Source: an uncultured beta proteobacterium (lineage in GTDB: Bacteria > Pseudomonadota > Gammaproteobacteria > Burkholderiales > Burkholderiaceae_C). Taken from it: DNA of 32,747 bases. The translations under genes and the position numbers were made by a program. Below are positions 55 through 32,747 of the stretch, piece by piece (the first letter of the stretch is position 1; every line of letters starts with the position of its first letter). The stretch spans positions 1-32,747 of the forward strand of contig CAIYWD010000221.1 in the NCBI GenBank assembly GCA_903929815.1. Reading direction: 5' to 3'. The notes beneath the pieces are model-generated. The model was not told where the DNA came from. It made no database searches and saw only the letters and a list, made by a program, of their open reading frames with translations.

Positions 55-299
55 AGGATATGGTCAACAATAAGTTGTGCATTTGGCCGTCAGAGTTGGG
101 ATGCAATCCCAGGCGCAAATCGTGCGGTGTGGCCCAGCCACATAAGCGATTTGTAACGACGCAGTGCGCCCAAATCTGACGAGACAAATGCACAACTTAT
201 TGTTGACCATATCCTGAGGGGGATTTGGATGTCGCACCCAAGCAAAGCCACATCACTTTGAAACGCACCCATACACAACTTATTATTGACCATATCCTA
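55..299. repeat. Long palindromic repeat (family A) with a nested motif
   Basis: Positions 55-85 and 185-215 are perfect 31-bp inverted arms, beginning AGGATATGGTCAACAATAAG. Inside are nested short hairpins (TGGGAT/ATCCCA, TGTGGC/GCCACA) and CAAATCG/CGATTTG, so one strand could fold almost completely. A third copy of the arm end lies at 273-299. Between 215 and 273 sits CCACATCACTTTGAAACGC (from 248), a motif that recurs at 5041, 25506 and 32725, so two repeat types appear nested here. The inner block of family A recurs at 12320 and, inverted, around 601-645. No transposase is present. This looks like a non-autonomous element or palindromic intergenic repeat. Confidence 0.75.
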
Positions 300-4416: not shown

Positions 4417-4430
4417 AATAAATCCTTTAA

Positions 4431-4664
4431 CCTAGATTCCTCAGTTGAACGCGCCCGAGTGGGCTACTGGCGGCGCGTCTGGATAGGCGTGACGACGCTG
4501 CAGGCTACTGCCTGCAAGGAGGAACAACACCCCCAGACGAGTCGCCAGTAGCTCAATCGGGTGCGTAGCGCTCTCACCCAAAGGGTGAACTCCATCGAAG
4601 TAACAAATATCAATTTTCATAACGGTTTAGTGAAAAGAATAAGCGGTCAACTGAGGAATCTAGG
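4431..4664. mobile_element. MITE-like element, copy 1
   Basis: A 234-bp element with terminal inverted repeats CCTAGATTCCTCAGTTGA (left, 4431) and its complement at the right end (4664). The match extends to 22 bp with one mismatch. It is flanked by the 5-bp direct repeat TTTAA (4426-4430 and 4665-4669), as expected of transposition. The interior continues the inverted symmetry (CTACTGGCG near 4464, CGCCAGTAG near 4544) and has a GCAGGC/GCCTGC hairpin (4500-4515). No coding capacity. CCTAGATT is also the start of the ISEcp1 (IS1380 family) repeat as I recall it, and that family makes short AT-rich duplications, so mobilisation by an IS1380-type transposase is plausible but unverified. Confidence 0.85.
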
Positions 4665-4708
4665 TTTAACCTAACAAAAGAGAACCATCCACATCAAGGG
4701 AACACAAG

Positions 4709-4855: not shown

Positions 4856-5068
4856 GGGTGCAATGCAAGGTGATGCGAAGTAGCCAACATGGATACCTAC
4901 AAGAAGCAGAGTTAGGCAAATTTATTCGCCTATTTTACTATGAAATAAATAGCTATCTATGTAAGCTGGACGTGCGCTAGAGGCCGATTTGTTATACAAA
5001 AAACTTACGCAAGTTCACGCAGCTTGACAGGTGAATATTGCCACATCCATATCACTTTGAATCGTACC
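4856..5068. repeat. Composite repeat (C-B-C), copy 1
   Basis: The left end GGGTGCAATGCAAGGTGATG (4856) and right end CCACAT...ATCACTTTGAATCG (5041-5068) are imperfect inverted versions of one motif, best written GGGTGCGTTTCAAAGTGATG. Between them sits a TAGCTA palindrome (TAGCTATCTATG...GCGCTAGAGGCCG, 4950-4986) followed by ATTTGTTATACAAAAAA. The element at 25282-25522 has the same parts in inverse orientation, sharing TTGTATAACAAATCGGCC and ACAGGTGAA. No protein is encoded. It forms most of the leader region of the DUF1566 gene. Confidence 0.6.
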
Positions 5069-7596: not shown

Positions 7597-8505
7597 TCAA
7601 GAAGTGATTGCACCAGGTCTGGTATCCATTTCACGGTGTCGTTTCAAGGTCATCCACCGCTTTTGAAAATGTTTACTTAATTGCTCCACCAAATAAACAG
7701 AGCGATGCTGGCCGCCCGTGCAGCCAATGGCTACCGTGACATAACTGCGATGGTTTAACGACATGGCATCCAGCCAAGTTTCCAGAAAACCCTCAATGTG
7801 ATGGAGCATTTTTTGCACATCGGCATGCTCTTGCAGAAAATGGATGACCGGTGCATCACATCCGGTCAACTCCCGCAGTTCAGGCTCATAGTGAGGGTTA
7901 GGCAACATACGAACATCAAACACGAAGTCGGAATCATTGGGAATACCGCGTTTGAAAGCAAAAGACTCAAAAACCAATGTCAATTGCGTGCTGAGTACCT
8001 CGAAAAATGCCTTGACGTAGCTCTGCAATTGAGTGGGGCGAAGAATGCTGGTGTCAATCACATGGGCGTTGGCGCGCAATTCGCTGAGCATCTCGCGTTC
8101 AAGTTCAATAGCCTCTGTCAATGCCCGCTGCTGATGGTGCATCGAGTTGATTTGTACGGTTTTGGACAAGGGGTGGCGGCGACGTGTTTCTGAAAATCGG
8201 CGCACCAGGGTATCGGTCGATGCGTCCAGAAACAAAGAAACAACTTGAATGCCAAGGGACTGGAGCTGGATCAATTGCGCTGGCACCTGTGGCAGGGCAT
8301 CCGCACTGCGCACGTCAATCGCAATGGCCAGGCGTCTGGCCTGGCTATGTTTCTGCAAATCAATCAAGGGGGTCAGCAACCCTGGTGGCAGATTGTCAAC
8401 ACAATAAAAACCTATATCTTCCATGGCATTGAGAGTCACCGACTTGCCCGAACCGGACATTCCTGTGATCAATACGAGTTGAATTTGTGTGGTGGGGTTT
8501 GACAT
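7597..8505 (-). CDS. rapZ: RNase adapter protein RapZ
   Basis: An approximately 302-residue P-loop protein (YvcJ/RapZ family) that in E. coli binds small RNA GlmZ and glucosamine-6-phosphate and directs RNase E cleavage. Walker A is GMSGSGKS (15-22), and the C-terminal region holds the conserved [13 protein letters not shown]. Two start codons are possible: ATG 8514, touching the MITE-like element with no room for a binding site, and ATG 8505 with AGGA eight nt upstream. I chose 8505 (MSNPTTQ). The AGG of that site is the last triplet of the repeat, so the mobile element appears to supply part of the translation signal. Confidence 0.9.
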
Positions 8506-8514
8506 GTCAATCAT

Positions 8515-8694
8515 CCTGGATTCCTCAGTTGAATGCGTCCGAGTGGGCTACTGGCGGCGCGTCTGGGGGGGTTGCCAGTAGCTCAATCGGGTGCGTAGCG
8601 CTCTCACCCAAAGGATACACTCCGTCGAAGTCACAAATATCAATTTTCATAACGGTTGAGTGAAAATAATAAGCGGTCAACTGAGCAATCCAGG
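8515..8694. mobile_element. MITE-like element, copy 2 (internally deleted)
   Basis: A 180-bp copy with ends CCTGGATTCCTCAG and CTGAGCAATCCAGG. Relative to the other two copies it lacks about 55 bp of the centre, including the GCAGGC/GCCTGC hairpin. The TTTAA duplication is absent (flanks ATCAT and ACAAT), so this copy looks older or rearranged. It fills the recN-rapZ gap, lies in the same orientation as copies 1 and 3, and overlaps the recN 3' end by 18 bp. Confidence 0.85.
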
Positions 8695-10344
8695 ACAATC
8701 CTGTTCTTGCAGCAAATCACGTGCATGAGCGACTGTGCTGTCCATGATTCGTTCACCGCCGAGCATACGCGCCAGTTCTGTCACACGGGTATCACCCATG
8801 ACAGGAGTCACCGAACTGATGATCCCAAAGCCTGTTTGTTGTTTGCTGACAACCCAATGATGGTCAGCACAGGCTGCCACTTGAGGCAGGTGAGTGACTG
8901 CCAGAACCTGACGATCACGACCGAGCTGCTGCATGAGGCGGCCTACGGTTTGCGCCACAGCACCTCCCACACCTGCATCTACTTCATCAAAAATAAGGGT
9001 TTTCGCTTGACCGAGCTGGCTGGTGGTGACGGCAATCGCTAGTGCAATGCGCGAGAGTTCGCCGCCGGATGCGACTTTGTGAATCGGTCGAGGCGTGCTG
9101 CCTGCATGACCTGCCACCAGGAAGTTCACCTCTTCAAGACCGGTGCGCATGGGTTTGTCTGAAGTTTGCAAAACAACATCAAATCTCCCACCCTTCATGC
9201 CCAAATCCTGCATCGTTTGGGTAATGACATCAGAGAGTTTGGGGGCTGCTGCAAGCCTGGCACGGCTTAATACGCGGGCTTCATGCAGATACGCTTGCAG
9301 TGCCTGCTCTTGTGCGTCTTCCAACGCTTGCATATCGGTTGCCGTTTCCAAAGCAATCAACTCCTGATGCCAATTTTGCAACAGTTCAGGCAAATCTTCA
9401 GGATGACGTTTGTAGCGGCGTGCCAGTGACACCCACAGGCTGAGGCGATCATCAATGACCGTCAGACGGTCGGGGTCAAGTTCAGTTTTGCGCAGGTAAC
9501 CGTGCAAGGTGTGCAAGCTGTCTTGAATCTGCACCACACTGGAGTTCAATACCTCGGTCAGCGCCCGAAACACAGGCTCAATATGCTCTTGTTGTTGCAG
9601 CAAAGAACAAGCGCGATTGAGCAAGGCGACCGCATTGTCGTCAGATTCGTCAAGAATGTGCAGAGTACCCTGTGCAGCATCCAGCAAGCCTTGGGCATTG
9701 GCCAAACGGGTGTGTTCTGCATTGAGTTCAGGCCACTCCCCTGCAAGAGGTGCCAGTTTTTCAACCTCGCCAATTTGCCAATTTAACCGCTCGCGCTCAC
9801 GCAACAGGGAATCTTGCGACAAGCGCGCTTTTTCCAATTGGCGTTGTGCATCTCGCCATTGCTGCCAGCACGCCGAAACGGCATCACTGTTCGTTTGCGC
9901 GTAGGCATCAAGCAAAATGCCCATGGCATCAACCCGTGTCAAACTTTGCCAGGCGTGCTGCCCGTGAATATCCAACAATTGCTCACCCAATGCGCGAAGT
10001 TGGCTGGCAGTGGCGGGGCTGCCGTTGATCCAGGCTCGGCTTTTCCCTTGAACGTCCACGGTTCGGCGCAGCAACAAGGAATCATCAGCCTGATAACCCC
10101 CATCCAACAACCACTGGCGTGTGGCTGGCCCCAGATCAAACTCTGCACTGACTTCCGTGCGGTGGGCACCCTCACGAATGACACCAACATCTGCGCGACC
10201 CCCAGTGACCAGTTGCAAGGCATCGATCAAAATGGATTTTCCAGCACCCGTTTCGCCGGTCAGCACGGTGAATTGATCGGCAAGCTCAAGGTCAAGCTCG
10301 CTCACAATCACAAAGTCTCTCAACACAATACGTTTCAAACTCAC
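8677..10344 (-). CDS. recN: DNA repair protein RecN
   Basis: A 555-residue SMC-like ATPase that acts early in double-strand break repair. Walker A is GETGAGKS (30-37), the ABC signature region [14 protein letters not shown] and Walker [14 protein letters not shown] are near the C-terminus, and a coiled-coil section lies in the middle. The start is GTG 10344, sharing GTGA with the nadK stop, which implies translational coupling. The last codons (PGLLS) and the stop codon, 8677-8694, lie inside the right terminal repeat of the MITE-like element, so insertion appears to have replaced the native C-terminus without harming the core motifs. Confidence 0.95.
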
Positions 10345-12319: not shown

Positions 12320-12388
12320 AAGCGATTTGTAACGACGCAGTGCGCCCAAATCTGACAAGCCCAATGTGGAACTTATTATTAATCCTTA
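12320..12388. repeat. Family A half-element upstream of tRNA
   Basis: AAGCGATTTGTAACGACGCA and the following TGCGCCCAAATCTGAC repeat the right half of the 55-215 element almost exactly. It continues into AACTTATTATTAATCC, a truncated arm, and stops about 6 bp before the tRNA. No matching left arm is present, so this is a solo half. Confidence 0.7.
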
Positions 12389-12393
12389 GTCAA

Positions 12394-12470
12394 GGGCCGT
12401 TAGCTCAGTTGGTTAGAGCAGAGGTCTCATAAACCTTTGGTCGCTGGTTCAAGTCCAGCACGGCCCACCA
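12394..12470 (+). tRNA. tRNA with anticodon CAT (Met elongator or lysidine-type Ile2)
   Basis: A 77-nt cloverleaf including encoded CCA. Acceptor GGGCCGT pairs with ACGGCCC, the D arm is GCTC/GAGC, and anticodon stem GAGGT/ACCTT encloses loop CTCATAA. The T arm is GCTGG/CCAGC with loop TTCAAGT. Anticodon CAT at 12428-12430. Pairs 4-69 and 5-68 are both C-G, as in E. coli tRNA-Ile2 (the TilS substrate), and the segment TTGGTCGCTGGTTCAAGTCC is, as I recall it, shared with that tRNA. Isoleucine identity after lysidine modification is thus a serious alternative to elongator Met. It is not initiator-like (no C1-A72 mismatch). Confidence 0.95.
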
Positions 12471-14270: not shown

Positions 14271-14332
14271 AAGGAACTCTCTTTCTATTGGATAACTTAA
14301 ATTCAATAGTCCGTGTCACCAAAATGGAGACA

Positions 14333-14436
14333 TGAAATCGTGTCTTTTCCTGCTTGGCGTTGTTGTTCGTCGTTGCAATAGCTCAGGCTATTGCGTCTCC
14401 TCTCGCCTAGCTCGTCAGAAAAATCCATTGATTTCA
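14333..14436. repeat. Long imperfect palindrome in the pheT-ihfA gap
   Basis: The core hairpin GCAATAGC-TCAG-GCTATTGC (14375-14394) is perfect. Arms extend outward imperfectly, with TTGGCG opposite CGCCTA and the outer ends TGAAATC (14333-14339) and GATTTCA (14430-14436). In the minus-strand transcript it would form a long stem between pheT and ihfA and could act as a processing or attenuation element. It does not match the other repeat families here. Confidence 0.55.
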
Positions 14437-14478
14437 TTAGGTAACATTGTTGATGAAACAGACTACCAGAAACGGACA

Positions 14479-25281: not shown

Positions 25282-25522
25282 GGGTGCGGTTCAAAGTGAT
25301 GTGAAGACGGCGATGTTCACCTGTAAAACTGCACGAACTGAGTGATTTTTTTGTATAACAAATCGGCCTCTAACGCCCGTCCCTATTGCGTAAGTAGCTA
25401 TCTTTATAATAGTAAAATTAACATCGATTCATTTGCAGCGGTAGATAGGTAGAGACTGAGTTATTCGCACGACTCATCTCCTGGCATGTGGCCATGTTGA
25501 CTGTTCCACATCACTTTGACGC
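25282..25522. repeat. Composite repeat (C-B-C), copy 2
   Basis: The left end GGGTGCGGTTCAAAGTGATG (25282) and right end CCACATCACTTTGACGC (25506-25522) are inverted versions of the same motif, about 241 bp apart. Enclosed are ACATCGCC/ACAGGTGAA-type sequence shared (inverted) with 5020-5040, TTGTATAACAAATCGGCC, and a TAGCTA palindrome (25366-25402). It separates ilvB from the divergent sigma factor operon, and its right end overlaps the longest possible sigma factor reading frame. Confidence 0.65.
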
Positions 25523-27330: not shown

Positions 27331-27360
27331 ACTGATGACTCAGGTGCGGGCGGAATTTAA

Positions 27361-27596
27361 CCTGAGATTCCTCAGTTGAACGCGCCCGAGTGGGCTACTG
27401 GCGGCGCGTCTGGGTAGGCGTGACGACGCGGCAGGCTACTGCCTGCAAGGAGGAACAACACCCCCAGACGTGTCGCCAGTGGCTCAATCGGGTGCGTAGC
27501 GCTCTCACCTAAAGGGTACACTTCCATCGAAGTAACAAATATCAATTTTCATAACGGTTTAGTGAAGATAATAAGCGGTCAACTGAGGAATCCAGG
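27361..27596. mobile_element. MITE-like element, copy 3
   Basis: A 236-bp full-length copy nearly identical in the centre to copy 1 (GCAGGCTACTGCCTGC hairpin, CTACTGGCGGCGCG arms). Ends are CCTGAGATTCCTCAG (one extra base) and CTGAGGAATCCAGG. It is flanked by direct repeats TTTAA (27356-27360 and 27597-27601). It lies between the convergent DUF3106 gene and glnB, and the right-hand duplication contains the glnB stop codon. Confidence 0.88.
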
Positions 27597-27597
27597 T

Positions 27598-27963
<366 letters not shown>

Positions 27964-32543: not shown

Positions 32544-32747
32544 GGGTGCGTTTCAACGACACCAAACAAAACTCACTTCTGGAAGCGCGGGCAAGATGCC
32601 CGCGCTTCCAGGAATGATGCTATGATTTTTTGCGATATTTTATGTTAAGAAATCGGCATCTAACGCCCGTCCCACTTGCATAGTTTGCTATGATTTTTGC
32701 AACTTAGATCAGACATGGCAGTCACCACATCACTTTGAAACGCACCC
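32544..32747. repeat. Composite repeat (C-B-C), copy 3
   Basis: GGGTGCGTTTCAA (32544-32556) and TTGAAACGCACCC (32735-32747) are perfect 13-bp inverted ends. The right side extends to CCACATCACTTTGAAACGC (from 32725) as at 248, 5041 and 25506. Inside are the GC-rich hairpin at 32579 and a TAGCTA-type palindrome (GGCATCTAACGCCCGTCCC ... TTTGCTATG, 32652-32693). The element reaches the end of the window. Confidence 0.65.
32579..32611. terminator. 15-bp perfect hairpin downstream of hppA
   Basis: CTGGAAGCGCGGGCA (32579-32593) and TGCCCGCGCTTCCAG (32597-32611) pair perfectly around AGA. It lies 78 bp after the hppA stop and may end its transcript, but no immediate T-run follows. The GCGGGCAAGATGCCCGC core resembles a palindrome seen between genes in many bacteria (recollection), so it may be a REP-like unit nested in the composite repeat. 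Confidence 0.6.

Follow-up and report, generated by a model that had tools for sequence, protein, structure and literature searches.

Small mobile sequences whose transcripts fold are already known in prokaryotes. MITEs and related sequences such as Correia/NEMIS, ERIC/RU-1, RPE and CIR, as presented in the relevant parts of PMC10969869 and PMC2229807, are alike in size, carry inverted ends, duplicate their target, reach many copies, lack a transposase and give a transcript that is predicted to fold; according to the same parts, small mobile sequences are reported to affect neighbouring messages via RNase III or RNase E. The 235-bp Chunjie elements, as far as the description in PMC10969869 goes, can be likened by that description alone to the element analysed here, with a similar size, ends, direct repeats and shortened copies. 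The main text of this review contains no occurrence of IS1380. The element described below shares all the features listed for the Correia/NEMIS, ERIC/RU-1, RPE and CIR group but, unlike these sequences as described in the parts cited, it has a hairpin arm that covaries across genera at a near-constant length, and its core has relatives between several other kinds of ends. These two features, the first one extending over many genera, appear to be new, together with an end set linked to IS1380-related transposons. The full-text literature searched, with most subscription papers and ISfinder outside its scope, gave no recognised description of the element, and its novelty is thus unproven.

The DNA analysed, hereafter the window, is a 32,747-nucleotide contig of an uncultured beta proteobacterium, whose draft genome comprises 2.6 Mb in 283 contigs and is 97.5% complete. 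The three copies of a repeat recognised there by the initial annotation are all real, two of them being full-length and one internally deleted. Copy 1 (4431-4664, plus strand, 234 bp) has inverted ends CCTAGATTCCTCAGTTGA and, at 4449-4582 on the plus strand, a conserved folded core that scores 146.0 bits with our covariance model R1; the fold of 4449-4583 has a z of -7.90. Copy 3 (27361-27596, plus strand, 236 bp), next to a P-II gene (27598-27936, minus strand), has an extra base in its left end, CCTGAGATT. The TTTAA repeats initially seen around two copies are exact, at 4426-4430 and 4665-4669 for copy 1 and at 27356-27360 and 27597-27601 for copy 3. Copy 2 (8515-8694, plus strand, 180 bp), whose neighbours are rapZ (7597-8514, minus strand) and a recN-like gene (8677-10344, minus strand), has lost the tip of the hairpin arm and is flanked by ATCAT and ACAAT, that is, without exact duplication. 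A different repeat of about 60-80 bp, with AAATCGGCNTCTAACGCCCGTCCC, occurs in the window at 25344-25401 and 32634-32691 and, inverted, at 4932-5011.

Real transposition with a target preference, as had been proposed from the TTTAA pairs, is borne out on a larger scale. An exact 5-bp duplication surrounds 80 of the 127 unique full-length copies with both flanks, taken from the draft genome and from other genomes, against a mean of 13.1 and at most 23 when the right flanks are shuffled; an earlier count (81 exact of 131 rows) preceded the removal of four duplicates between named and other sources. When the flanking 5-mers are tabulated, 79 of these 80 duplications follow n-T-N-A-n, with T in second and A in fourth place, and 73 read TTNAA or ATNAT. 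All 20 full-length copies of the complete genome G055 have exact duplications, and the longest inward-facing pair among the end sites listed for this genome spans 444 bp. In the draft genome, one copy (L002:1037-1270) interrupts a unit of a different repeat (GGTGCGnTTCAAAGTGATG) at TTCAA, and the two sides of its duplication differ by one mismatch. This repeat occurs as 27 intact units as well, which represent empty sites, and as 3 more interrupted units that are seen on their left side only. A repeat reading GGGTGCGTTTCAAAGTGATGTGG, which in many cases continues with AAATCCCCCCTAACCCCCCTTTTTCAAAGGGGGG or a similar sequence, is found at 230-270 of the window, in L016, L051 and other loci, and is a target for the element. 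With a size below 500 bp, inverted ends, no transposase and a target duplication upon insertion, the repeats are a transposase-less 234-bp mobile element scattered through beta-proteobacteria.

The search of the draft genome with the 4431-4664 sequence that the initial annotation had suggested does find further copies: BLAST returns at least 53 matches, at least 40 of them over at least 140 bases, the remaining ones being short or antisense arm matches, and this is a lower bound, as scoring covered the best 40 of 124 candidates and the matches listed do not include copy 2. Copy counts in this genome are in any case lower bounds because many of its contigs end inside a copy. The 18-bp end, with up to 3 mismatches, has 160 sites there, against 0 for a reversed control. 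Shorter and longer derivatives with the same ends are also present in this genome. The shortest ones measure 50 bp (L059:2044-2093 and L074:2061-2110), with the two ends nearly back to back and without exact duplication, and are probably internal deletions that occurred after insertion.

Outside this genome the element is widespread but patchy, depending on how it is searched. It is present in 15 of 60 genomes by DNA search (the draft genome included), full-length matches within the genus being 68-83% identical, mostly 76-83%. In named genomes, at least 108 stretches contain the exact core pattern, and most of these bear a beta-proteobacterial label; among the matches listed, the labels include Ramlibacter, Roseateles, Paucibacter, Variovorax, Polaromonas, Accumulibacter, Azonexus and others, three records being Rhodoferax, with single records labelled Desulfobulbus and Acidimicrobiia. 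Order-wide, the same exact pattern is rare and patchy: of 399 genomes, the draft genome and one other contain it. Within the bacterial family, R1 matches at E ≤0.001 in 115 of 299 genomes (the draft genome included) and in 73 of 141 genera, with rough E-values and with some matches that may be other-ended elements or chance hairpins. Phages gave no match to the element, viral contigs none to the exact core pattern, and E. coli none to an other-ended core used as query; plasmids queried with the window copy gave one match, in Polaromonas (69.1% identity).

The initial annotation had likened the ends to those of IS1380 and ISEcp1, and the ISEcp1 end also begins CCTAGATT. This likeness stands for congeneric genomes, where full IS with the same kind of ends are indeed found, but not for the draft genome. 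In the genus, an IS1380-related subgroup (e.g. in G008, G015, G072 and G093; also in G520 of the family) has ends CCTAnnnnCnnCAGTT. Among its complete IS, the ends read for instance CCTATTTTCCTCAGTT in G008 and CCTATTTCCGGCAGTT in G015, and G106 has single IS ends CCTAGAAACCGCAGTT. Two of the transposases (L118 and L117) score 79.2 and 90.4 bits with PF13701 (cut-off 34.7) and 164.7 and 159.0 bits with NF033539 (cut-off 180). The left end of the element reads CCTCA (59), CGGCA (23) or CCGCA (11 of 132 rows) at positions 9-13, which are the same end types as those of the IS. IS ends in L147/L150 and element ends in L211/L223 agree at 17 of 17 bases in different genomes, likewise L155 and L252, and the end of window copy 1 agrees with L118 and L155 at 15-16 of 18 bases. 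All 24 IS flanks picked by hand show T in second and A in fourth place, two of them from L115, whose ends differ, while three of six weaker end-like sites left outside this count fit T-N-A and three do not. Exact 5-bp duplications are found at two IS, ATGAC (L144) and CTAAT (L329). The IS1380-related IS thus have the end type, the mostly n-T-N-A-n flanks and the 5-bp duplications of the 234-bp element, but differ from it in being 1.5-1.7 kb long, in carrying a transposase and in having no significant R1 core in 41 loci (PF13701 or L118-like; best R1 13.7 bits).

Within the draft genome, neither a PF13701 profile search nor a protein search for an L118-like transposase found anything, so that no resident autonomous IS was seen there from which the element could derive or by which it could be moved; a tblastn search for transposase fragments in 81 of its loci gave none that was convincing (best E 0.026). 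PF13701 matches occur in 18 of 60 genomes searched, in 6 of the 15 with the element versus 12 of the 45 without it (the draft genome included), and there is therefore no clear link between the two. Relatives of the G008 transposase are present in 21 of 89 genomes of the genus, the draft genome not being among them. The idea of an IS1380-related mover is also weakened by the fact that relatives of the transposase are limited to 6 of 24 element-rich genomes, and by G501 and G520, the only two of these six where both IS ends are readable, in which the ends of the resident IS differ from those of the element. Weighing the shared ends, flanks and duplications against the missing resident IS, the mover is probably a transposase of IS1380-related kind, acting in trans, as judged from sequence comparison. 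The draft genome does have an IS1634-family transposase, at L091:283-2049 on contig C145 (NF033559, 311.7 bits), which is the only PF01609 match reported there. This protein was rejected as the mover, since it belongs to IS1634 by NF033559, lies about 5 kb from an end-like site and has no matching ends in the surrounding stretches that were inspected.

Between its ends, the element has a strikingly regular interior. Its length is exactly 234 bp in 46 of 57 named-genome copies among the matches listed, where ends were accepted about 166-309 bp apart, and in 77 of all 128 unique full-length rows, 125 of which measure 230-238 bp, the spread in the G-numbered genomes being bounded by a preselection at 226-252 bp. 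This preselection comprised 76 full-length rows, from which one artefact was removed, and excluded shorter and longer derivatives, among them window copy 2; alignment A2 consists of 45 of the resulting 75 rows, hand-chosen for diversity, and alignment A3 of 33 rows. The scan of named contigs gave, among the matches listed, 81 core matches in 80 loci, of which 57 had both ends; the other 24 were excluded, 12 for lying at a contig edge and 12 for having weak ends. Four duplicates remain in the length and G·U, orientation and first duplication sets, and the thinned sets are without near-identical rows.

In the 45 selected copies, from 13 genomes, a 40-pair structure is paired in 94.7% of cells, with two-sided changes in 28 of the 40 pairs; all 500 shuffles fall short on each of five measures, and pairing drops to 32-45% in slid versions. 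The 33 copies from more genera give the same picture, with 35 pairs, 94.4% of cells paired, two-sided changes in 30 pairs, none of 500 shuffles at that level and 32-48% pairing in slid versions. Conservation is unevenly distributed over the fold. By mean majority share of the letters, the long arm scores lowest among the helices (0.651), whereas the highest value of all (0.935) is shared by the tandem G·A loop and the second hairpin; the ends stand at 0.847 and the spacer at 0.569. The internal loop opposes 5' GACGAC to 3' AGGAGG, as G·A, A·G, C-G, G·A, A·G and C-G, and its two C-G pairs are replaced by A-U or G-C in some copies. At the gathering score, Rfam recognises only a tRNA in the window and nothing in 8 other loci, and it finds nothing in copy 1 alone at E up to 5.

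The counts of G·U and A·C bear on which strand folds. In 63 rows thinned at 90% identity, G·U outnumbers A·C by 256 to 10 in the long arm, raw counts of this kind being inflated by kinship between rows, and G·U leads in 20 of the 21 pairs of the arm. When all interior pairs are taken together, its lead is smaller (29 versus 9, with 2 ties), because the small hairpin is neutral (6:5 in the thinned set) and the second hairpin has the reverse preference (6:15). For the arm, this points to one strand as the folded one. As G·T also exceeds A·C in single-stranded DNA, the excess of G·U does not separate RNA from single-stranded DNA. The interior is thus not a random leftover but a conserved, strand-specific fold, in which the arm sequence is exchangeable and the loops are near-invariant.

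Conservation of the interior could also have a coding origin, in the form of a minus-strand peptide of about 60 residues running from an ATG to a TGA inside the end. A frame that ends at the TIR, stays open over at least 58 codons and has a Met within its first 14 codons is indeed present in 27 of the 45 aligned copies, but in 10 of the 45 the stop is missing, and a further 8 lack an open frame of this kind. Moreover, variation at second and third codon positions is nearly equal (0.223 versus 0.248 within the genus, 0.409 versus 0.378 between families). As these codon-position rates reveal no constraint at the protein level, the peptide was rejected, and we regard it as very improbable.

The same data bear on the simplest origin for an element of this type, namely an ordinary miniature element that arose by internal deletion of an IS, the interior being neutral filler and its palindromes being due to chance or to templated repair between the arms. 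Such elements typically have ends and duplications like those observed here, and the shorter and longer same-end derivatives of the draft genome would fit as well. Nevertheless, the interior was not found in the 41 IS loci mentioned above, and a neutral filler accounts poorly for a near-constant length, for near-invariant loops next to an exchanged arm and for related cores with other ends (see below). Templated repair, for its part, should erase G·U pairs, yet the long arm keeps them in large excess over A·C. We therefore consider this origin quite unlikely, and favour a fold that has been kept by selection.

R1 also matches regions devoid of the ends of the 234-bp family, and these regions sit between other inverted ends. 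Two of them are in the window. At 56-214 (plus strand), a 159-bp element with inverted ends GGATATGGTCAACAAT has a related folded core; six more copies of this family, 159-160 bp long and flanked mostly by TTA, are present in fetched loci of the draft genome. A partial copy lies near 12320-12380, directly before a tRNA gene (12394-12467). At 14307-14465 (minus strand), between pheT and ihfA, a 159-bp stretch is bounded by inverted ends of a third type, TAGTCTGTTTCATC / TAGTCCGTGTCACC, and again contains a related core. A host RNA located between pheT and ihfA was envisaged as the ancestor of the core and rejected, as R1 finds nothing significant when applied to the pheT loci of 29 other genomes (best E 0.098), the pheT-ihfA junction itself being visible in 12 of the 30 pheT loci displayed, since minus-strand loci exposed the opposite side. 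The 14307-14465 stretch therefore looks like a separate insertion. Elsewhere, related cores lie between ends CCTAGTACTTCGTT (L228), CTAGTGCAGTGTTC or similar (L276, L254 and L242), CTAAGAACTTGTCC (L290), TTAGAACGTGTTTA (L387, a plasmid), CTCAGAGGCTGAGA (L217), GCCTGTTCACACTA (L248) and AAGGACCCTCTGCA (L386 and L388, plasmids). Even after merging similar ends, at least six other end kinds accompany a related core, the two of the window included. Their ends suggest that these other-ended elements are mobile too, further copies having been checked for the GGATATGGTCAACAAT kind only.

Weak R1 matches alone prove little: because of the palindromic arm, R1 gives 234-bp copies about 20-47 bits even when they are read in antisense. 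For this reason a second model, R2, was built without the 234-bp family and the strand of its matches was checked. It derives from alignment A4, ten hand-chosen other-ended rows with none from the 234-bp family; the core at 56-214 is one of these rows, so that R2 matches it by construction, whereas the 14307-14465 stretch was deliberately left out and scores 28.1 bits. At E ≤1, R2 finds the 234-bp element in 22 of the 29 sources that contain it (20 at E ≤0.01), always at the element and on the sense strand, with no antisense match, and gives one match (E 0.5) in 13 sources without the element. L205, with 48.7 bits, is intermediate. R2 misses 7 of the 29 copies, gives no more than 11.9 bits to window copy 1 and 16.4 bits to window copy 3, and has two weak unexplained matches elsewhere in L211 (E 0.054) and L241 (E 0.46). 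As R2 recognises 234-bp elements on their sense strand, the cores are related or, at the least, have strand-specific sequence and fold in common. Found between at least six other end kinds, the core thus behaves as a module carried by different end sets, and reciprocal model searches support the view that it is shared across them as such.

What such a module would do, and for whom, can be addressed from the position of the copies. One possibility is that the core acts in cis on host messages, as a terminator, a stabiliser or an RNase III site, and is kept for its effect on neighbouring genes. NEMIS and ERIC elements provide precedents, at least in the parts of PMC10969869 and PMC2229807 that deal with them, and copies close to genes exist, as at rapZ and the P-II gene. 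However, a strand-specific fold acting in this way should bias the orientation of the copies, and none is apparent: among 121 copies with usable flanks, counted with crude ORF calls and with the four duplicates still in the set, 34 are in sense with both neighbouring genes, 38 antisense to both, 26 between divergent genes, 18 between convergent genes and 5 in an undefined context. The common orientation of the three copies, which the initial annotation had pointed out, is thus true of the window but is not a rule. An action in cis on the neighbours seems to us unlikely.

The explanation that we favour, with moderate confidence, is that of a non-autonomous family of about 234 bp that would be moved in trans by an IS1380-related DDE transposase, and whose interior would be a selected, strand-specific fold, shared as a module and serving the element itself. 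The transposase would recognise ends of type CCTAnnnnCnnCAGTTG and insert the element into a palindromic WTNAW site, generating the 5-bp duplication. The ends, the duplications, the insertion into a repeat and the congeneric IS can be observed directly, and it is the movement of the element by this transposase that we infer. Selection would keep the interior fold, made of a long exchangeable arm, an internal loop, a small hairpin and a second hairpin, the internal loop consisting of two G·A/A·G tandems split by covarying pairs. As RNA or as single-stranded DNA, the fold would serve the mobility or the persistence of the element rather than neighbouring genes, because the copies show no orientation bias towards the latter. 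A more far-reaching proposal, which we put forward tentatively and hold to be possible rather than probable, is that the structured nucleic-acid module is itself the unit of selection: it would keep its fold and loops, swap its arm, be taken up by unrelated kinds of ends, and be needed as strand-specific RNA or single-stranded DNA for moving or persisting.

Bacterial miniature transposons are usually read as remnants that are defined solely by their ends, whereas here part of the interior is better kept than the ends. As the core outlives changes of ends, it becomes a testable question whether a folded core helps a transposon that has no enzyme of its own. Given the number of genomes and genera of the family in which R1 has a match, any such function would be widespread.
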